DNA of 35,667 nucleotides from Chitinophaga pinensis (GTDB taxonomy: Bacteria; Bacteroidota; Bacteroidia; CAMBQF01): NCBI GenBank assembly GCA_945869825.1, contig CAMBQF010000015.1, positions 1-35,667 on the forward strand, in the 5' to 3' direction. A model generated the notes under the pieces. That model worked only from the letters and a program-made list of their open reading frames with translations, was not told the DNA's origin and searched no databases. The first letter of the stretch is position 1; every line of letters begins with the position of its first letter. Below, piece after piece: positions 25,732 to 35,667 of the stretch. Both the position numbers and the translations under genes were made by a program.

Positions 25732-28131
25732 ATGTCTAAAGAAGAGTTTTATAAAAAATTGCTTGATAATATTCCGGCAGATATTGCAGTTCTTGATAAG
25801 CACTCGAAGTATGTATTCGTTAATAAAAATGCAATTAAAGACGATACCCGCCGCGCCTGGATTATAGGAAAGACAGATTTAGAGTATTGCGAGCACAGGG
25901 GTATAGACCCTTCTGTAGCTGCTGCGCGTACTAAATTGCATAAAGGGGCAATAGACTCTAAAACAGCTAATAAGCTGGAAGAGGAAATGGTGGTTGATGG
26001 CAAAAAGTCGTACAACTACCGTATTATGCAACCGGTTTTTGATGATAATGGTGACTTAGAGTTTTTACTTGGCTATGGCATAAGCATTAATGAAATAAGA
26101 GAAAAATACGAAGTAATAAACAAAAACCTGCGCCTTCTAAACTCATTAAACGAGCTGTTAAAGCGGCAGGTTGGTAACGATAGCCCTGAACTCATTTTTA
26201 AAAAAATATTGGATGATGTAATTAACCTTACCGATAGTAAGTTTGGTTTTATTTCAGATGTACTAATTGATGAGGTTGGTAACCCCTACATTAAAACCAA
26301 GGCAGTATCAAATATATCGTGGAATGCCGAAACCCAAAAGCTATATGAAGATGGGCAACGCAACGGCATGGAGTTTAGAAACCTCAAAACCATATTTGGG
26401 CAGGTTTTGGTTACCAAAAAGCCTTACATATCAAACAATCCGCAGACTGATTCTAATGCCAGCGGAACACCTACAGGGCATCCGCCGTTGATTAGCTTTT
26501 TGGGTGTACCTTTTATGCAGGGCGAAGAAATGATAGGTATGGTAGGTTTGGCTAATAAAACAGATGGCTATTCTGAAACAGATATAGAAAACCTGACCCC
26601 ACTGGCTCAAACCCTGTCTATTGTTTTAAAAAGCCTTAAAATAGATTTTGAAAATAAATCTATGTTGGGCCTTATCAAATCAAAAGAGCAGGAGGTTCTT
26701 GAATTGATTCGGAATTTAAAAGATATTGTTTTAAAGTTAGATGAGAACTTCAACATCCTTGATATATCTAGTGAATTTGAATCTTTTTCAGGCAAAACAG
26801 TAAATCATATTTTAGGCACTGACTTTACCAAGCTAATTAAATTGGAAGCCGACAGGGCCGATTTTTTAAGCAGGGTAGATGAACTTAATACAAACTACGG
26901 TGGCAATTTTAGCGCTAAGTACAAGTTATCTGTAAATAATATCGACAGGTATTTTGAACTTAAGTTCTCTTTGGTTTCTATAAACGGTTTCAGGTACCTG
27001 CTGGGCAGGCTCAGCGATATTTCTAAAGAAATAGAATCGTTAAATAAAATTAACGAGCTGGCTGTGGTTACTGAAAAAACACAAAGTACCGTAATAATTG
27101 CCAGTACCAATGGTGTTGTAAAATGGGTTAACCAGGCCTTTACTAATTTACTTGGCTACACATTAGATGAAGTTGTAGGTAAAACCCCTTTTGAATTTTT
27201 ACAAAAGGTAAACGAAACAGAAGATATGTCTAGAGCGGCACGTGTGGCTATGATAGCCAAACAGCCATTTTCTGGAGAGATTATAAACTACACAAAGGAT
27301 GGAAGGAAAATTTGGGTATATGTAAACTTTGTTTTTTTTAAAGATAACGATGGGGTTGAAAGTATATTAAGCGTTGCCTCAGACATTACAAAACTTAAGG
27401 TTGCCGAGGCTGAAATATTAAAATCGTTGGCAAACGAAATAAACTCTAATAAGCTTAAAAGCCGGTTTGTTAGTTTAGTATCGCATGAGTTTAGAACCCC
27501 TTTGGCAACAATACAATCATCTATAGATTTGTTTAAACTTAAGGTTGAAAAGCTTGATACAAAACTTAAAACAGATTTTGATGAAACGTATAGCACAGTG
27601 CTGGGCGAAATTTCAAAGCTTACAGAGTTGATGAATACCTTTCTTTTAAAAGAAAAGCTAAATCAAACAACTATAGAACCTAACAGGGTTTTAACTAATT
27701 TGAATGATTTTTATACAGATATTGTAAAAGATATATGTGTTTCTAATAATAATAAAGAAGTAAAATTAAATATCCCGACAGAGCATAAGTTTGGAATGGT
27801 AGACGTTTCGATGATGATGATAGTGTTGCAAAATATCATTTCAAATGCTTTTAAATATTCGTCAAAGTCTGATATGGCTCCGGAAATTAGCGTTATTTAT
27901 GGAGAAAAAACTTACGACATTGTAGTAAAAGACTTTGGTATTGGAATACCTGAAACAGATTTGCCTAATATTTTCAACGCTTTTTACAGGGCAAAAAATG
28001 TTGAAAACATACAAGGTACAGGTGTTGGATTAAACATTGTTAAAGAATACATTAGCGTTTTAAACGGCACAATTATTATACAAAACAACCAAACGGAAGG
28101 CACAAATGTTACAATCACACTCCCATATTGA
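25732..28131 (+). CDS. Sensor histidine kinase, PAS-GAF-PAS-PAS-HisKA-HATPase
   Basis: 799 aa, no membrane helix, so probably a cytosolic sensor. PAS 1 (about 5-120, with VNKNAIKDD, WIIGKTDLEYC); GAF (about 135-300, with GHPPLISFLGVPF); PAS 2 (about 325-435); PAS 3 (about 445-555, LGYTLDEVVGKTPFEF); HisKA with H585 in SHEFRTPLATI; HATPase with N box NIISNAFKY (701-709), G1 DFGIGIP (734-740) and G2 GTGVGLNIV (762-770). All kinase motifs are intact. Its last 26 nt overlap the LuxR-type regulator gene, the likely cognate partner. The ligand is unknown. PAS 1 matches the second PAS of the kinase-like protein two genes downstream. Confidence 0.92.
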   Translation: MSKEEFYKKLLDNIPADIAVLDKHSKYVFVNKNAIKDDTRRAWIIGKTDLEYCEHRGIDPSVAAARTKLHKGAIDSKTANKLEEEMVVDGKKSYNYRIMQPVFDDNGDLEFLLGYGISINEIREKYEVINKNLRLLNSLNELLKRQVGNDSPELIFKKILDDVINLTDSKFGFISDVLIDEVGNPYIKTKAVSNISWNAETQKLYEDGQRNGMEFRNLKTIFGQVLVTKKPYISNNPQTDSNASGTPTGHPPLISFLGVPFMQGEEMIGMVGLANKTDGYSETDIENLTPLAQTLSIVLKSLKIDFENKSMLGLIKSKEQEVLELIRNLKDIVLKLDENFNILDISSEFESFSGKTVNHILGTDFTKLIKLEADRADFLSRVDELNTNYGGNFSAKYKLSVNNIDRYFELKFSLVSINGFRYLLGRLSDISKEIESLNKINELAVVTEKTQSTVIIASTNGVVKWVNQAFTNLLGYTLDEVVGKTPFEFLQKVNETEDMSRAARVAMIAKQPFSGEIINYTKDGRKIWVYVNFVFFKDNDGVESILSVASDITKLKVAEAEILKSLANEINSNKLKSRFVSLVSHEFRTPLATIQSSIDLFKLKVEKLDTKLKTDFDETYSTVLGEISKLTELMNTFLLKEKLNQTTIEPNRVLTNLNDFYTDIVKDICVSNNNKEVKLNIPTEHKFGMVDVSMMMIVLQNIISNAFKYSSKSDMAPEISVIYGEKTYDIVVKDFGIGIPETDLPNIFNAFYRAKNVENIQGTGVGLNIVKEYISVLNGTIIIQNNQTEGTNVTITLPY

Positions 28132-28816
28132 TATTACCCTTGGTGATATTAAATTAGTTGTTATTGAAGACGAGGAGAAATTGCTGAGTAATATTGTTGA
28201 ATACCTGAATTTGGCAGGATACAACGTAGTAGGCTTCAGCGATCCGCTAGAAGGGTTAGAGTATTTAGAAAAGCAGCGGGTTGATGTAATTATTTCTGAT
28301 GTTAAAATGCCATCAATTTCGGGTTTCGAACTTATTTCAGATATAAGGCGGGGCAAAATTAATAAAGATGCTGTTTTTATATTTTTAACAGCAAAAGTAG
28401 AACGCGACGACCTTAGGACCGGAATGAACCTACAGGCAGATGATTATATTACCAAGCCTTTTGTAATGCAAGACCTTGTAAATGCTATAAACACAAGGCT
28501 TAAATTAAAATCTGACCGTGCCGAAAATGCCAATACCAAACCTACGCTGGTAAAACAGTATATGTTTGATATGCTGGATAAACTTACCAAGACTGAAGTT
28601 AAAGTTGTTTACCTTGTATCTATGGGTAAAAGTAACGACCAAATAGCTGAAAGGCTTTCTGTTAGCCCCAAAACCGTAGATAACCACAGAACTAATATTT
28701 CGGCAAAATTATCCATTTCTGGCCGCAATAAACTATTGCAGGTTTGTATTGAAAACAAGTTGCATATCAAAGAGTATATCCAGGAGAAAATGAGGGATAT
28801 GCCTCATTTTTTCTAA
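28106..28816 (+). CDS. LuxR-family (NarL-type) response regulator
   Basis: 236 aa. Receiver domain at about 15-130: acidic pocket IEDEE (20-24), phospho-acceptor D65 (IISDVKMP), switch T95 and K117 (ITKPF). A LuxR HTH lies at about 157-220: LTKTEVKVVYLVSMGKSNDQIAERLSVSPKTVDNHRTNI, in parts, with the usual recognition helix. Expected to bind DNA as a dimer when phosphorylated. The start lies inside the kinase gene (26-nt overlap) and no other in-frame start exists before the receiver core, so the overlap is real and suggests coupled translation. Confidence 0.93.
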   Translation: MLQSHSHIDITLGDIKLVVIEDEEKLLSNIVEYLNLAGYNVVGFSDPLEGLEYLEKQRVDVIISDVKMPSISGFELISDIRRGKINKDAVFIFLTAKVERDDLRTGMNLQADDYITKPFVMQDLVNAINTRLKLKSDRAENANTKPTLVKQYMFDMLDKLTKTEVKVVYLVSMGKSNDQIAERLSVSPKTVDNHRTNISAKLSISGRNKLLQVCIENKLHIKEYIQEKMRDMPHFF

Positions 28817-28862
28817 GTTTTTAATTGTTTTATTTACCACAACTGAGTTTTAGAAAGTTGAG

Positions 28863-30344
28863 ATGGCAAATAGTAGCAAAAGTGGTACTTGTTTAAACCC
28901 AGATTGTCAAAACGGGTTTACCTGTGCTACCTGTTATGCTTCGTACAACTTTCCGATACACAACCCTAACCCGGTTTTTTTATTTAATGAGTCATTTGAG
29001 CTGATTTATGCTAATGGCATTGCGCAAGCTAAAATAATTGATTGTTGCAATGCCTTTCAGCTTAGAGCGTTTAACTCAAAACTAAGGCAAAGTTTTGATA
29101 GTTTAATAAATAGCGACAAAGACTCTTCTCACTTTTATTTTTCTACAACTACTAATTCATTTAGGTTTGATATTGTTTATGATGCGCATGAGCAACGCAT
29201 ATACCTTTATGGAGTTGATATAACCAGAGAAAAATCATTATCTGATGAGATTAGTAATCAGACAGATTTTTTAAACAGGGTTTTAGATAATGTGCCCGTT
29301 GATATTGTTTTATTTAATACTAAACACCAATATCAGTATGTAAATAAAATTGCCGTTAAAGATGATGAAACCCGCAACTGGCTTATAGGTAAAACCGACT
29401 TTGACTATTGTGATTATAAAGGAAAGGATAAAGAAGTAGCAGAGCATAGAAGAAACGCGTTTAACAAGGCCCTGGCTAATAAAAAAGATATTGATTACGT
29501 AGACAAGATAAAGGTTGATAAGGGTACTAAATACGTGCTGCGCAGGTTTCATCCGGTAGTACATAATGGTAAAGTTACAGAGGTAGTTGGCTATGGTGTA
29601 GACATAACGGAGCAGTTACTGGCACAAAAAAGGTTAGCTAAAACTTACGAGTTGCTGTTTAACAACCAGGTATTTTTAAAACAGATACTTAGCTACTATG
29701 TGCATAATGTTAAGCATCCCATGTCTAATATTGAAGGGCTTATTGAAAACTTTAATACAGAAGACCTGGCAGATCCGGAAAATAAATTTGTTATAGAAGG
29801 ATTAATAAAATCGTACGGAGAGTTAAACCAAAGCTTTAAGGGCCTTACAGGTAGGTTAGACCATTCGTTCACTTCCTTTCAAAATGAAAAACAGCTAATA
29901 GATATTAAATCAACTATTATTAAGCATGTTGATAGTGCAATGCAAAAATACCCGCTAAAATACAGGCTGCGTTTTCCATCAGCCAGTATGGCAGGTTTAT
30001 ATTTCTACAGCTTTATGTTTAACCGTATAGTTAAACAGTTTTTTCAATTTCTTGCCCATACCGTAGATAAGTCTTATCTAAACATAACAGTAGATAATAA
30101 TTGCACCGCCAGCTTTAATACAATTACATTTCATATTTCTAAATTTCATTTAAGCAAGGCGCGTGTACTGGCAATTAAAGAAGCTGTAAAGTCAATAGAC
30201 TCAATAGATTTTGATGTTAATAAAAACAATATTGCTGATATAGCCTGTATTTTGGCCTGTAGTGGAGGGTACCTAAGCTTTGATTATACGGCAGAGAAAC
30301 TGCGCTTTGATTTGAATTTCCCTAAACTAAATATTAATGTTTAA
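28863..30344 (+). CDS. Atypical histidine-kinase-like protein: Cys4 N-terminus, two PAS domains, HisKA, no recognisable ATP-binding motifs
   Basis: 493 aa, no signal peptide or membrane helix. Four cysteines C10-x4-C15-x5-C21-x2-C24 at the N-terminus could bind zinc or an Fe-S cluster. Next: PAS-like domain (about 36-125), PAS (about 134-250; IAVKDDETRNWLIGKTDFDYC) and a HisKA-like helix pair with H281 in YYVHNVKHPMSNIEGL, in the HN-type H box seen in other Bacteroidota kinases. The region where a HATPase should lie (about 340-490) has a similar length, but I find no N-box Asn pair, no DxGxG and no GxGxG. It may be a pseudokinase, a phosphotransfer/scaffold protein or a divergent kinase. It follows the LuxR regulator by 46 nt and abuts a lone receiver. 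Confidence 0.8.
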   Translation: MANSSKSGTCLNPDCQNGFTCATCYASYNFPIHNPNPVFLFNESFELIYANGIAQAKIIDCCNAFQLRAFNSKLRQSFDSLINSDKDSSHFYFSTTTNSFRFDIVYDAHEQRIYLYGVDITREKSLSDEISNQTDFLNRVLDNVPVDIVLFNTKHQYQYVNKIAVKDDETRNWLIGKTDFDYCDYKGKDKEVAEHRRNAFNKALANKKDIDYVDKIKVDKGTKYVLRRFHPVVHNGKVTEVVGYGVDITEQLLAQKRLAKTYELLFNNQVFLKQILSYYVHNVKHPMSNIEGLIENFNTEDLADPENKFVIEGLIKSYGELNQSFKGLTGRLDHSFTSFQNEKQLIDIKSTIIKHVDSAMQKYPLKYRLRFPSASMAGLYFYSFMFNRIVKQFFQFLAHTVDKSYLNITVDNNCTASFNTITFHISKFHLSKARVLAIKEAVKSIDSIDFDVNKNNIADIACILACSGGYLSFDYTAEKLRFDLNFPKLNINV

Positions 30345-30789
30345 AAACTATTTATTAGTTATGACAGAATTTTCGGCATTGCAAAACGTAATGTTAATTG
30401 ATGATGACGATATTTCACTTTATCTAACAAGCAGAAGGCTGGAAAAAGAGGGGTTTGCTCAAAATATCATTAAGCACGAATCGGTTGATGCAGCTATTGC
30501 AGACCTGCAAAACAATCGAAACGATATAAATAAATTACCCGATTTAATTTTCTTAGATATTAATATGCCTCGAAAAGATGGTTGGGATTTTTTAGAAGAA
30601 TTGAAAAACCTTGAACTGGCATACAGAGCTCCTGTTATAATGCTAACTTCATCAGACTCTATGATGGATAAGATTAAATCATCCCGATATCCAAATTATG
30701 TATTTGGTTTTTTTAACAAGCCTTTAAAGGTTGAAGATATAATGGCCTTAATACACTTTTTAAAAAGTAAGTCTATAAGTAAACTATAG
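30337..30789 (+). CDS. Single-domain response regulator (receiver only)
   Basis: 150 aa if started at the ATG at 30337, which overlaps the previous gene by 8 nt; an ATG at 30361 (142 aa) gives the whole receiver domain too, so the start is open. Acidic pocket LIDDDD (20-25), phospho-acceptor D74 (FLDINMP), T104 and K128 (FFNKP) are all present. No output domain. Lone receivers of this kind act as phosphorelay shuttles or by protein-protein contact. Its nearest partner is the kinase-like protein just upstream. Last gene of the cluster, ended by a clear terminator. Confidence 0.9.
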   Translation: MFKNYLLVMTEFSALQNVMLIDDDDISLYLTSRRLEKEGFAQNIIKHESVDAAIADLQNNRNDINKLPDLIFLDINMPRKDGWDFLEELKNLELAYRAPVIMLTSSDSMMDKIKSSRYPNYVFGFFNKPLKVEDIMALIHFLKSKSISKL

Positions 30790-30819: not shown

Positions 30820-30850
30820 AGCCCTTAAGTTATTACTTAAGGGCTTTTTG
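30820..30850 (+). terminator. Rho-independent terminator of the signalling cluster
   Basis: Perfect 11-bp stem AGCCCTTAAGT / ACTTAAGGGCT with a TATT loop, then TTTTG-TTTG. It separates the cluster from the giant surface-protein gene. Confidence 0.9.
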
Positions 30851-31214: not shown

Positions 31215-34200
31215 ATGAATAATACCTATACCTCGCGATTAATTGACATAGTAGGTTTGGTTAAAAAAGTAAAGGCAAAGTCTTTTATGGCTTTCTTTTT
31301 GCTTTTTATTGCGTTTAGCACAACGGTGCTAGCACAGCAAAACCGAACGGGAATTGTCAATAACGGCTCACCTTCAGCATTTACTGGTAATGATGGTCGT
31401 AATTTGACCAAAGTTGATCTTAACACAGATCAGGGAGCTGACATTGAGTCTATGCTGCATAAGTTTGATAAGCAGCTTTACTTTACCCAAAACAAAGGTC
31501 AATGGAGCGGCGATATTCTATACCGTGTTGATTTTCCATACGGGCAGGCAGTAGCTACCAGCAAGGGTATGATGATGGGCTCGTTCGACCCAGAATCGGT
31601 TAGTTCTCGAGCTACGTGGATGGAAGATCAGGAGCGTGCCAAGCACGATGCGAAGCCGTTTAACAAGCCTATGCCTAACCTTAAAGGCCATGGTTGGTTG
31701 ATGGAGTTTACCGGTTCATCGGCAGCAATGACGGTAACTAACAAAGACGCCCACAAAGACTACTTTAATTATTTTAAAGGCCAAAACCCAGTAAACCATG
31801 CAACAAATGTGCAAAGCTTTGGCGAGGTATGGTATAATAACGTATACAACAATATTGATGTACGCTATTACCCATCGGCCGACGGCCAGTTAGAATACGA
31901 TATTATTGTTAAGCCCGGTGCCAACCCGGCAAACATAGCCATTAAGTTTAATGGTATTGATAAATTAGAACTGTCTCGCGAGGGGCATTTGGTGCTTAAT
32001 ACCACCGTAGGTACAATGGACCTGCCAGAGCCTTACGCTTACCAAATAGTAAATGGTAAAGAGGTTAAAATAGAAGCTGCTTATGCACTAAACGCTAAAG
32101 GCGAACTTACTTTTACCTTAGGCAAATACGATACATCTAAACCACTTGTTATTGACCCTATAGCTTTGCGTTGGGCTACATGGATGAATAATAACTCAGG
32201 CGGCGACTCTCACGGACACGGAATTTGGGTTGATAACAGCGGTAATATATATGTGGTTGCCCGTTTACAAGATGGCGGCCTTATTACAGTTGGTGCTTTT
32301 GACAACTCGGCCAACGGTAGCGTTGACGTTGCTATTGGTAAATATACTGAGCCAACTACTATTGGCGGTGCTGGTACCCGTGTATGGCAAACCTATGTTG
32401 GCGGTGGAAACTCTGACAACCCCTACGTTTGCGAAATGGGCCCAGATGGCAACTTATATGTAGCTGGTAATACTACTTCTGGCTTTCCGCTTATAGGTGG
32501 TTCAGCTTTTGGTTCATCAGGCGGGCTTGACTTTACCGGACAAACCAGCGACAACTCTTTTATAATGAAAATTAACGCTGCCGGTAACTCAATTAAGGCA
32601 GCTGTAATTGGTGGCAATGGTAGCGAAGATACTTATGACCTACGTTTTACCCCCAACGGTAGTATTGTTATTTGTGGTGCCACAACCAGTACAAACTTAT
32701 CATCATTAGGTTTTAGCAATGCATCAAACACCAACAACGGTGGCGATGATTTTTGGATGTACCAAATAAACGCCAACCTTAGCACCGTTGCTTGGATGCG
32801 TAACTGGGGCGGTAATGATGCTGACCGTATTAACATTATTAACATTAACACCAACGGTGATATTTATGCCGGTGGTTATACCGAAAGCTCTGGCTTATCA
32901 CTTGTATCTCCACGCCAAGGTACTTATGCAGGCGATAGCGATGATGGTGTAGGTTATTTAGCTAAAACAAACTCTACCGGTGTCATTCAGTGGAGCTCAT
33001 ACTTTAACTCTTCTGGTACAAATGCAACCACCAGAATTTTATGTATGGAGTTAAACAAATCCAAAAATGCTATTTATTTTGGCGGTACTACTGAAGGCCT
33101 TGCTACAAGCAACATTTCATCATCAGGCAGGTACGACAACTCTTACAATGGTGGCACGCGCGACTTTTATGTTGCCAAAATGGCACTCGACCAAACATTT
33201 GCCTACTCAACCTACATTGGTAGTGGTGGAGATGAAAATAATATGATGGGCTTAAACGTAGATGAAAATGATGACGTGTATGTCTTTGGCTACACTTATG
33301 GAAGCGATTTTCCTACGGCCAGCAACCCATTTCAATCAAGCTTAAATGGTGAGGGCGAAAAGGTATTTTTTAAATTAGAAACGGATTTGTCAACGTTGCT
33401 ATACAGCACGTATTATGGTGGAACAAATGATGAAAGCGACCCCGTTGGCCAGCGTGGTATTAAATTTAGCAATTGCCGTATTTATACCATTGTTACGTCT
33501 GAGTCGAACAACTTGCCTTTAACACAGGGGGCGCTTACAACTTCAAAAACGAGCCCTACAGACCGGCACGAACCCGGTGTTGTTGTTTGGGCCAACCCTC
33601 CAGATTTGAATAATAACACTATTGGGCCAAATCAAAATATATGCTCGGGTGGCACCCCTGCTTTGTTAGATGGTCAAACACCTACCTATGTTTTACCTAC
33701 AATTACTCGCAATGGTACAACGTCGGCACACCCTGTTCTTACATCAGGTATATCATACCAATGGCAGCGTTCTACCGATAATAACACTTGGACAAACATA
33801 TCAGGTGCAACAGGCGAAGATTTAACATCGGCCCAAATGGGTGCGTTAACGCAAACAACATACTTCCGCCGTGTATTTAATGGCGACGCTTGCGTTGTTT
33901 CGCCACAAAGCAATGTAAAGGTTGGTGTATTTAAAGTTAGCGCAGCTGTTGTTAATAATATTTGTTTTGGTGGAACAGCCGGAACAATTACGTTAACACC
34001 AACAGATGGTACAGCCGGTTACCAATACCAATTAGGTAGCGGTGCTTTCCAAACAAGCAACGTTTTTAATGGCCTAGCTGCCGGCACTTATACTGTAAAT
34101 GCTAAAGATGCTAATAATTGTACTACATCTGTTACAGTTACAATAACACAACCAACACAAGTAAGCTTTTCAGCTTCATCATCGGCTGCTACTTGCGGTG

Positions 34201-35667
34201 CCTCAAATGGCTCTATTACCATTTCGGGCGCAACGGGTGGCACATCTCCATATACATATAGCATAAACGGTAGCTCTTACCAAGGCGGTACTTCATTTAC
34301 CGGTGTGGCAGCAGGTACTTATACTGTATATGTAAAAGATGCCGCAGGTTGTATCCGTACCCAAAGCGTAACAGTATCATCGGCTAATGCATTGGTTGCT
34401 TCTATTGGGTCGCAAACCAACGTTAACTGTTTTGGTGGCGCTACAGGCTCAGTAACCCTATCTCAAACAGGTGGTACAGCAGCTTACCAATACCAATTAG
34501 GTAGCGGAGCTTTCCAAAACAGTGCAACATTTAGCAGTTTAAATGCAGGTACTTATACCTTTACTGTTAGAGATGCAAACGGTTGTACAGCTTCGGTATC
34601 TGCAACAATTACCCAGCCTTCTGCAGCCCTTGCAGGTTCAATATCAAGCCAAACTAATGTTTTGTGCCGTGGTAATTCAACAGGCTCGGTAACCATTGGT
34701 GCTACAGGTGGTACACCTGCTTACCAATATAAAATAGGTTCAGGTTCTTTAGGTTCAAGCAATGTTTTTAGCGGTTTAGCCGCAGGTTCTTATGTTATTA
34801 CCATTCAAGATAGCAAAGGCTGTACAGCTACTGTAAACGTAACAATTACCCAGCCAGCCTCGGCTTTGTCGGGTAGTATTACTGCCCAAACAAACGTAGC
34901 TTGTAACGGTGGTAACGGTTCTGTAACTGTAGCCGGTGCAGGTGGTACAGCCCCATACCAATACAAAATAGGTTCAGGTTCTCTGCAATCAAGCGGTACA
35001 TTCTCTGGCCTTTCAGCAGGTAGCTATACGGTTACTGTGCAAGATAATAACGGTTGTACTACTACGGTTCCTGTAACTATTACACAACCTTCAAACTTAT
35101 CGGTAAGCGCAACGTCTCAAACTAACGTATTGTGTTTTGGCCAGTCAACCGGTGCTGTTACGGTATTAGGTTCAGGTGGCGCAGGTTCTTATCAATATAA
35201 AATTGGTTCAGGTTCCCTACAATCTAGCGGTACTTTCTCTGGCTTAGCTGCCGGCTCGTATGTAGTAACTGTACAAGACGCTAACGGTTGTACATCAACT
35301 ATAAACGTAACCATTACCCAACCAGCGGCAGCCCTTTCGGCTTCTATAGGTTCTCAAACCAACGTATTATGCCGTGGTAATTCTACAGGTGCTGTTACTA
35401 TTACAGCTACTGGTGGCACGGGCGTATACCAATACCAATTAGGCTCAGGTTCATTCGGGGCAAGCAACGTATTCTCTGGCTTAGCAGCTGGTAGCTATGT
35501 TGTAACTGTTAAAGATGCCAACAACTGTACTACTACTGTAAACGTAACCATTACCCAACCAGCTGCTGCACTTTCTGTAACTACAGGCAGCATAGTAAAC
35601 GTACTATGCCGCGGCAATGCAACGGGTTCTGCTACAGCAAGCGCTACAGGTGGTACTGCAACATACT
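31215..35667 (+). CDS. Giant secreted SprB-repeat protein (DUF7948, beta-propeller, Ig-like, SprB repeats), 3' end outside window
   Basis: Open from the ATG at 31215 to the window edge: 1484 full codons without a stop. The N-terminus is a 24-residue basic/amphipathic lead followed by a signal core (FMAFFLLFIAFSTTVLAQ). Then a DUF7948-like domain (about 86-312; LYFTQNKGQWSGDILYRV, YNNVYNNIDVRYY, PLVIDP), a propeller-like region of repeated GN-IYVAG and STYIGG strands (about 313-790), an Ig-like domain (about 798-905; YQWQRSTDNNTWTNI), and SprB-type repeats of 77-79 residues. Eight repeats begin in the window, with key Cys at residues 917, 994, 1072, 1151, 1230, 1307, 1386 and 1465. Such proteins are T9SS-exported adhesins, some used in gliding; a C-terminal sorting domain would lie beyond the window. 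Confidence 0.9.
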   Translation, partial: MNNTYTSRLIDIVGLVKKVKAKSFMAFFLLFIAFSTTVLAQQNRTGIVNNGSPSAFTGNDGRNLTKVDLNTDQGADIESMLHKFDKQLYFTQNKGQWSGDILYRVDFPYGQAVATSKGMMMGSFDPESVSSRATWMEDQERAKHDAKPFNKPMPNLKGHGWLMEFTGSSAAMTVTNKDAHKDYFNYFKGQNPVNHATNVQSFGEVWYNNVYNNIDVRYYPSADGQLEYDIIVKPGANPANIAIKFNGIDKLELSREGHLVLNTTVGTMDLPEPYAYQIVNGKEVKIEAAYALNAKGELTFTLGKYDTSKPLVIDPIALRWATWMNNNSGGDSHGHGIWVDNSGNIYVVARLQDGGLITVGAFDNSANGSVDVAIGKYTEPTTIGGAGTRVWQTYVGGGNSDNPYVCEMGPDGNLYVAGNTTSGFPLIGGSAFGSSGGLDFTGQTSDNSFIMKINAAGNSIKAAVIGGNGSEDTYDLRFTPNGSIVICGATTSTNLSSLGFSNASNTNNGGDDFWMYQINANLSTVAWMRNWGGNDADRINIININTNGDIYAGGYTESSGLSLVSPRQGTYAGDSDDGVGYLAKTNSTGVIQWSSYFNSSGTNATTRILCMELNKSKNAIYFGGTTEGLATSNISSSGRYDNSYNGGTRDFYVAKMALDQTFAYSTYIGSGGDENNMMGLNVDENDDVYVFGYTYGSDFPTASNPFQSSLNGEGEKVFFKLETDLSTLLYSTYYGGTNDESDPVGQRGIKFSNCRIYTIVTSESNNLPLTQGALTTSKTSPTDRHEPGVVVWANPPDLNNNTIGPNQNICSGGTPALLDGQTPTYVLPTITRNGTTSAHPVLTSGISYQWQRSTDNNTWTNISGATGEDLTSAQMGALTQTTYFRRVFNGDACVVSPQSNVKVGVFKVSAAVVNNICFGGTAGTITLTPTDGTAGYQYQLGSGAFQTSNVFNGLAAGTYTVNAKDANNCTTSVTVTITQPTQVSFSASSSAATCGASNGSITISGATGGTSPYTYSINGSSYQGGTSFTGVAAGTYTVYVKDAAGCIRTQSVTVSSANALVASIGSQTNVNCFGGATGSVTLSQTGGTAAYQYQLGSGAFQNSATFSSLNAGTYTFTVRDANGCTASVSATITQPSAALAGSISSQTNVLCRGNSTGSVTIGATGGTPAYQYKIGSGSLGSSNVFSGLAAGSYVITIQDSKGCTATVNVTITQPASALSGSITAQTNVACNGGNGSVTVAGAGGTAPYQYKIGSGSLQSSGTFSGLSAGSYTVTVQDNNGCTTTVPVTITQPSNLSVSATSQTNVLCFGQSTGAVTVLGSGGAGSYQYKIGSGSLQSSGTFSGLAAGSYVVTVQDANGCTSTINVTITQPAAALSASIGSQTNVLCRGNSTGAVTITATGGTGVYQYQLGSGSFGASNVFSGLAAGSYVVTVKDANNCTTTVNVTITQPAAALSVTTGSIVNVLCRGNATGSATASATGGTATY
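33930..35667 (+). repeat. Tandem in-frame repeats encoding SprB units (231-237 bp)
   Basis: Cys codons that mark each unit fall at 33963, 34194, 34428, 34665, 34902, 35133, 35370 and 35607, giving periods of 231, 234, 237, 237, 231, 237 and 237 bp. Units 5 and 6 share long near-identical DNA (the GSGSLQSSGTFSGL segment), so recent duplication or gene conversion is likely. The array continues past the window. Confidence 0.88.

Follow-up and report, generated by a model that had tools for sequence, protein, structure and literature searches.

A degenerate HN-type histidine kinase with a retained phospho-acceptor histidine beside a lone receiver gene in Bacteroidia: a candidate phosphotransfer protein

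The window analysed here is a 35,667-nucleotide stretch of contig CAMBQF010000015.1 from a member of the Bacteroidia (assembly GCA_945869825.1). Four genes located on the same strand at 25732–30789, 3' of purF, encode (i) a sensor histidine kinase (kinase 1), (ii) a LuxR-type response regulator, (iii) a PAS-type sensor protein (P0001) with a phospho-acceptor histidine and a tail of CA-domain length devoid of ATP-site motifs, and (iv) a lone receiver. The same gene order is present in another genome of this genus (L007), where the orthologue of P0001 shares 79% identity; this locus, as L036, belongs to a public MAG from a pond (record JAIXUZ010000149.1) that is independent of the window's genome.

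Kinase 1 (25732–28131, + strand, 799 aa) has the Pfam architecture PAS-GAF-PAS-PAS-HisKA-HATPase_c and is complete, as originally predicted: its H box reads SHEFRTP, and the motifs SHEFRTPLATIQSS, NIISNAFKY, DFGIG and GTGVG are all present. It shares 94.5% identity with its counterpart in L036 (dN/dS 0.07). The 3' end of its gene is overlapped by the start of the gene for the output response regulator (28106–28816, + strand, 236 aa), which consists of a receiver and a LuxR/GerE DNA-binding domain (Pfam; dN/dS 0.18 versus L036, gene dS 0.97) and whose orthologues adjoin kinase 1 orthologues in other genomes. The luxR gene has a hairpin with a T-rich tail at its end (28783–28814, + strand), situated between the two gene pairs. 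Of 49 nucleotides, 48 are the same in L036 despite a dS of about 1 for the gene; the hairpin represents a possible terminator or attenuator, and transcription of the pairs kinase 1-LuxR and P0001-receiver may be separate. The P0001 gene (28863–30344, + strand) forms an uninterrupted reading frame of 493 codons for amino acids. Its 3' end is in turn overlapped by the gene for the lone receiver (30337–30789, + strand, 150 aa), in which Pfam and alignments identify the catalytic residues (DDDD, LDINMP, TSS and KP; dN/dS 0.13 versus L036). A strong intrinsic-terminator-like hairpin follows 3' of the receiver gene (30820–30845, + strand), with a similar hairpin in L036. Further downstream, a large open frame (31215–35666, 1484 aa) extends past the end of the window and is composed of repeated units of about 70 residues of the type TNVLCRGNSTGSVTI...GLAAGSYVVTV, which we take to resemble SprB-like surface adhesin repeats.

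The original prediction assigned two PAS domains to P0001. In case of the second (29283–29615, + strand, residues 141–251), this is borne out by the single Pfam match of the protein (PAS_4, 1e-6), and the domain is 34% identical to a PAS domain of kinase 1. The first (28953–29237, + strand, residues 31–125) is plausible and lies below Pfam detection; it is 86% identical in L036, and its assignment is based on residues 35–270 being 33% identical to the kinase of L039, the matching N-terminal region of which itself yields a weak PAS_8 match only. The proteins of L037–L039 were rejected as full-length relatives of P0001, having the PAS part alone in common and carrying a DHp domain of another type (SHDLQEPL). 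Upstream of the PAS domains, the N-terminus contains a cysteine motif CX4CX5CX2C (28890–28934, + strand; C10, C15, C21 and C24). Since all four cysteines are kept in L036 within a stretch (residues 1–30) that is just 50% identical, a metal or redox sensor appears possible.

The DHp region of P0001 (29646–29876, + strand, residues ~262–338; dN/dS 0.16) is a genuine histidine-kinase dimerisation domain of the HN type. Pfam matches neither HisKA nor HATPase in P0001. A search profile made from 22 intact HN-type kinases collected in this analysis matches residues 274–387 (6.8e-12) as well as the orthologue (6.9e-9), both in a database of 4 sequences (Z=4). In hhalign, the DHp domain and the first CA elements align with 94% probability, H281 falls on the phospho-acceptor His, and the match ends at the N box. 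H281 (29703–29705, + strand), the predicted phospho-acceptor, is preceded by LKQILSYYV and followed by NVKHPMSNIEGL; the surrounding run VHNVKHPMSNIEGLIENFN is identical in L036, while the two versions of P0001 differ overall at 21% of their residues.

The remainder of the protein (29895–30341, + strand, residues 345–493), placed by mixed kinase and profile alignments, is as long as a CA domain: it extends about 163 residues past the DHp domain, and nearly all complete relatives that carry no additional domain have 157–175 residues there. The recognisable ATP-site motifs are lost. According to two alignments, the N-box helix corresponds to residues 380–394 with K391 at the position of the Mg-binding Asn; according to the mixed kinase alignment, the G1 position reads SKFH (residues 426–429) and the ATP lid/G2 region falls short by about 12 columns around residue 455, all of these placements depending on the alignment of very diverged sequence. 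The absence of any DxGxG or GxGxG from the tail is firm, and the positions of the Mg-binding Asn, DxGxG and GxGxG are replaced or absent in P0001 and orthologue alike. The original prediction of an HN-type H281 followed by a HATPase-length tail without N box, DxGxG and GxGxG thus holds for both proteins. No HATPase or CA domain was detected in P0001 by Pfam, NCBIfam or hhalign, the latter representing the HHpred-type comparison with a complete HATPase that had been proposed as the refuting test, and a Pfam search with the last 239 residues returned no family at E<=10. Loss of ATP use is the probable consequence, judging from the sequence.

With the CA part alone, hhalign gave 0.3% probability, not above 60 shuffles (some of which scored higher); a global profile alignment of this part scored above shuffles with z = 2.7, and at least 1 of the 200 shuffles surpassed it. 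Searched against PDB sequences, the C-terminal part yielded chance matches only. The AlphaFold model from a two-row alignment (mean pLDDT 36) had no kinase match at E <= 0.001 in Foldseek. Addition of kinase rows raised the mean pLDDT to 42, and the top Foldseek matches of this model were all DHp-CA kinases or relatives, matches that are biased by the kinase rows in the input and are not proof of fold. The predicted order of secondary-structure elements fits a CA domain, and both models are poor. Going by length and predicted secondary structure, the tail may be a remnant CA fold; given the poor AlphaFold models and a CA-only profile score that did not exceed that of shuffles, it could also be something else. 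The fetched loci comprise 74 proteins of the DHp family. A CA match is present in 36, a further 35 stop no more than 20 residues past the DHp domain, one (L095) continues into a receiver, and a CA-length tail without a CA match is confined to P0001 and its orthologue.

P0001 is under purifying selection over its whole length. In comparison with L036, dN/dS amounts to 0.19 overall, 0.19 in the CA-like tail and 0.10 in the last 50 residues. The frame is intact (492–493 aa) in two independent MAGs, with a sole indel at the last residue, and the translational overlap with the receiver gene is preserved in both. P0001 occurs only in these two members of a single genus, one genome being 88% complete; in a third genome of the genus, neither P0001 nor the LuxR regulator gene has an orthologue-level match.

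When 395 genomes of the class were searched with the C-terminus of P0001, 22 gave matches, the third-slot kinases of genomes G207, G086 and G118 being among the best; the loci examined from this search contained no further degenerate P0001-like copy. The gene order kinase, LuxR regulator, third kinase and lone receiver is contiguous not only in L036 but also in two loci of another Bacteroidia family (L110 of G086 and L113 of G207), both of which adjoin dnaK; an extra kinase gene is inserted in the latter locus. In both, the third place is taken by a complete multi-PAS HN-type kinase, its motifs in G086 reading AHNLRAP, NLLSNSYKY, DNGIG and GSGLGL. The same parts are split over two contigs in G118 (L145, L114), the last three genes are present in G235 (L151), and the two gene pairs of G050 each lie on a contig of their own. 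Given the intact kinase in the four-gene loci of this other family, the third slot appears to be normally occupied by a working kinase. In G179 (L146) and G149 (L148), kinase 1, LuxR regulator and receiver are encoded beside dnaK and the third kinase gene is absent, indicating that the slot was lost as well as inactivated.

An HN-type kinase followed by a lone receiver is also found outside the four-gene loci. Two paralogues in the window's genome (L005, L006) are complete HN-type kinases, each then followed by a lone receiver, as are L024 and L026, and the receivers of all four have the LDINMP-type signature. Altogether, a lone receiver is encoded directly 3' of an HN-type DHp protein in case of P0001, L005, L006, L024, L026, L112, L113, L114 and L151. 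A DHp tree calculated from 68 proteins positions P0001 among complete kinases, beside L034 (support 99/79), on a long branch (2.49) based on few columns. The kinases of the four-gene loci form a separate clade (98/99) with P0001 outside, so that descent within the slot is argued from gene position and not from the tree. From its placement in the tree and the intact kinase in the same slot elsewhere, P0001 is thus regarded as a dead former HN-type kinase adjoining the lone receiver typical of its kind. This supports the original proposal in part, namely as regards a kinase-like protein that has kept its His domain, has lost its ATP site and neighbours a lone receiver. The complete third-place kinase of other genomes extends that proposal, since it provides P0001 with a type of active ancestor and with a natural partner, the lone receiver. 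The case is therefore stronger than at first reading with respect to an active counterpart in the same gene slot, and weaker with respect to the fold of the tail.

Sensor proteins that end directly past an HN/SHxVR-type DHp domain and have no CA domain at all, mostly with PAS domains and in one case with TPR, were observed at numerous further loci (L054, L055, L058, L059, many of L065–L092, L093:2975–5170 and L094:3438–4550). They account for 36 of the 68 sampled proteins and stem from many Bacteroidia families, a share that is not to be taken as a frequency since sampling started from a CA-less query and is biased accordingly. In the DHp tree they constitute one group (support 76/75, present in 72% of bootstrap trees). 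Five of them, as well as L095, were inspected with Pfam and displayed a HisKA match and no HATPase (four of the five under the curated cut-off). Several adjoin a lone receiver gene, and the window's genome has at least two such proteins (L093, L094), each beside a lone receiver. The same genome also encodes a PAS-DHp-receiver fusion of 619 aa without a CA domain (L095:3083–4939). P0001 was considered as a member of this group and rejected, on account of its tail of ~163 residues and its position with complete kinases in the tree. Since P0001 falls outside the group, its ATPase loss looks independent.

The window encodes all four roles of a relay together, i.e., a kinase, a single-domain receiver, a degenerate kinase and an output regulator. 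P0001 may well act as a sensor-gated phosphotransfer hub in the manner of PhyT, ChpT and Spo0B, an assignment by analogy that we hold with middling confidence. On this reading, P0001 is a dead enzyme derived from an HN-type sensor kinase that normally pairs with the downstream lone receiver: it would no longer bind ATP productively, would retain dimerisation via the DHp domain and could be phosphorylated at H281 from a receiver. The lone receiver would be phosphorylated by kinase 1 or another kinase, and phosphate would then pass from the lone receiver via H281 to the LuxR regulator; alternatively, the relay might run in reverse with P0001 as a drain. We infer the phosphotransfer by P0001 as well as its partners and direction. 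On a broader scale, one may tentatively speculate that two kinase-receiver pairs were merged into one phosphorelay through death of the ATPase in the second kinase, independently of Spo0B, ChpT and PhyT, in a manner traceable through the active kinase of relatives and as part of a wider CA-less habit in Bacteroidia; this wider scenario is somewhat less probable than the hub function itself.

Rather unlikely, and still the most serious competitor, is a function of P0001 mainly as phosphatase or phosphate sink, its DHp domain dephosphorylating the lone receiver and/or the LuxR regulator in opposition to kinase 1 whenever the PAS or cysteine sensor is engaged. Phosphatase activity is one function left to a protein that has lost kinase activity and kept its DHp domain, and the partner receiver is conserved. 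However, H281 is followed by N-V-K-H and not by E/D-x-x-T/N, the pattern of well-studied HisKA phosphatases; intact HN-type relatives do not have this pattern either, and the rule may therefore not apply here. A phosphatase role was proposed for archaeal HisKA-no-HATPase proteins (PMC5847659), and phosphatase activity was reported for several clostridial phosphotransfer proteins (PMC11210211).

Less probable again is that P0001 operates as a purely allosteric, DivL-like pseudokinase, binding the (phosphorylated) lone receiver and signalling to kinase 1 by contact while H281 stays unphosphorylated. DivL itself has no acceptor His, whereas the neighbourhood of H281 has remained unchanged in an otherwise diverging protein, which suggests that the His is in use. 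On the other hand, P0001 and kinase 1 have a related PAS domain in common (34%), the CA-like tail is maintained by selection (dN/dS 0.19), and there is a precedent in DivL, described in PMC4211667 as a kinase-derived protein reading a single-domain receiver. Continued use of ATP by P0001, as a kinase whose CA domain has diverged strongly, would be compatible with the length of the tail and with the N-box-like helix placed by the mixed alignment; it is very improbable, given that Mg-binding Asn, DxGxG and GxGxG are replaced or missing in both orthologues and that no profile detects a CA domain. Finally, a decaying pseudogene or assembly artefact, which the occurrence in two genomes only and the loss of the third gene in several relatives (kinase 1-LuxR-receiver in L146 and L148) might bring to mind, is refuted by the 79%-identical orthologue with its kept H281 region, the intact frame in two independent MAGs, the dN/dS of 0.19 and the preserved overlap with the receiver gene.

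If the interpretation of P0001 as a former kinase turned phosphotransferase is correct, the loci provide a before/after pair for this transition, with a slot that works in one family and is dead in another, and the conserved neighbours render the rewiring directly testable. It would also suggest that a class of ATPase-less, His-carrying proteins is overlooked when two-component systems of Bacteroidota are annotated, about half of the (biased) DHp sample having no CA domain. No description of a dead HN-type kinase from Bacteroidota was found in the open-licence literature; ATP-less His transfer is known from a few other bacteria, and the present case would add a new group and a new gene setting.

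Among proteins of comparable architecture, the archaeal 'HisKA, no HATPase' proteins (listed in P2CS as 'possible incomplete histidine kinase') combine sensor domains and a DHp His with no recognisable HATPase (PMC5847659). Their C-terminus is formed by a HisKA-like domain, as in the CA-less group of Bacteroidia, whereas P0001 keeps a tail of CA length. The HN-type kinases paired with a lone receiver (L005, L006, L024, L112, L113) resemble P0001 in DHp family, PAS domains, downstream receiver and length after the His, and differ in possessing the N, G1 and G2 boxes, none of which is found in P0001.

Spo0B lacks sensor domains. This dimeric His phosphotransferase of Bacillus is grouped with ChpT among kinase-derived proteins (PMC5898713). 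ChpT of Caulobacter performs His transfer without use of ATP: a DHp-like hairpin with the His is joined to a CA-like domain unable to use ATP, in which the ATP lid is lost and replaced and no bound ATP was found (PMC3433190). The lid region of P0001 likewise seems deleted in the mixed kinase alignment. The published description gives ChpT two domains only, to which P0001 adds two PAS-type domains and the cysteine motif. Pfam yielded no match to the ChpT/HPTransfase or Spo0B families with the whole of P0001 (E<=1) or its C-terminal part (E<=10). The likeness to ChpT and Spo0B put forward originally is therefore fair as a mode of action and does not extend to family membership.

PhyT (with PhyP) of Sphingomonas melonis, a degenerate HRxxN-type kinase, is like P0001 kinase-derived, with the DHp His kept and the ATPase domain degenerate. 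It receives phosphate from a single-domain receiver, SdrG, and passes it on to the output regulator PhyR, whose gene belongs to the same locus (PMC5898713). PhyT differs from P0001 in being membrane-anchored and in belonging to another DHp class; P0001 has a PAS sensor, an HN-type DHp domain and a LuxR output, with the receiver and a full kinase encoded in the same cluster. In circuit layout, PhyT nevertheless appears to be closer to P0001 than either ChpT or Spo0B.
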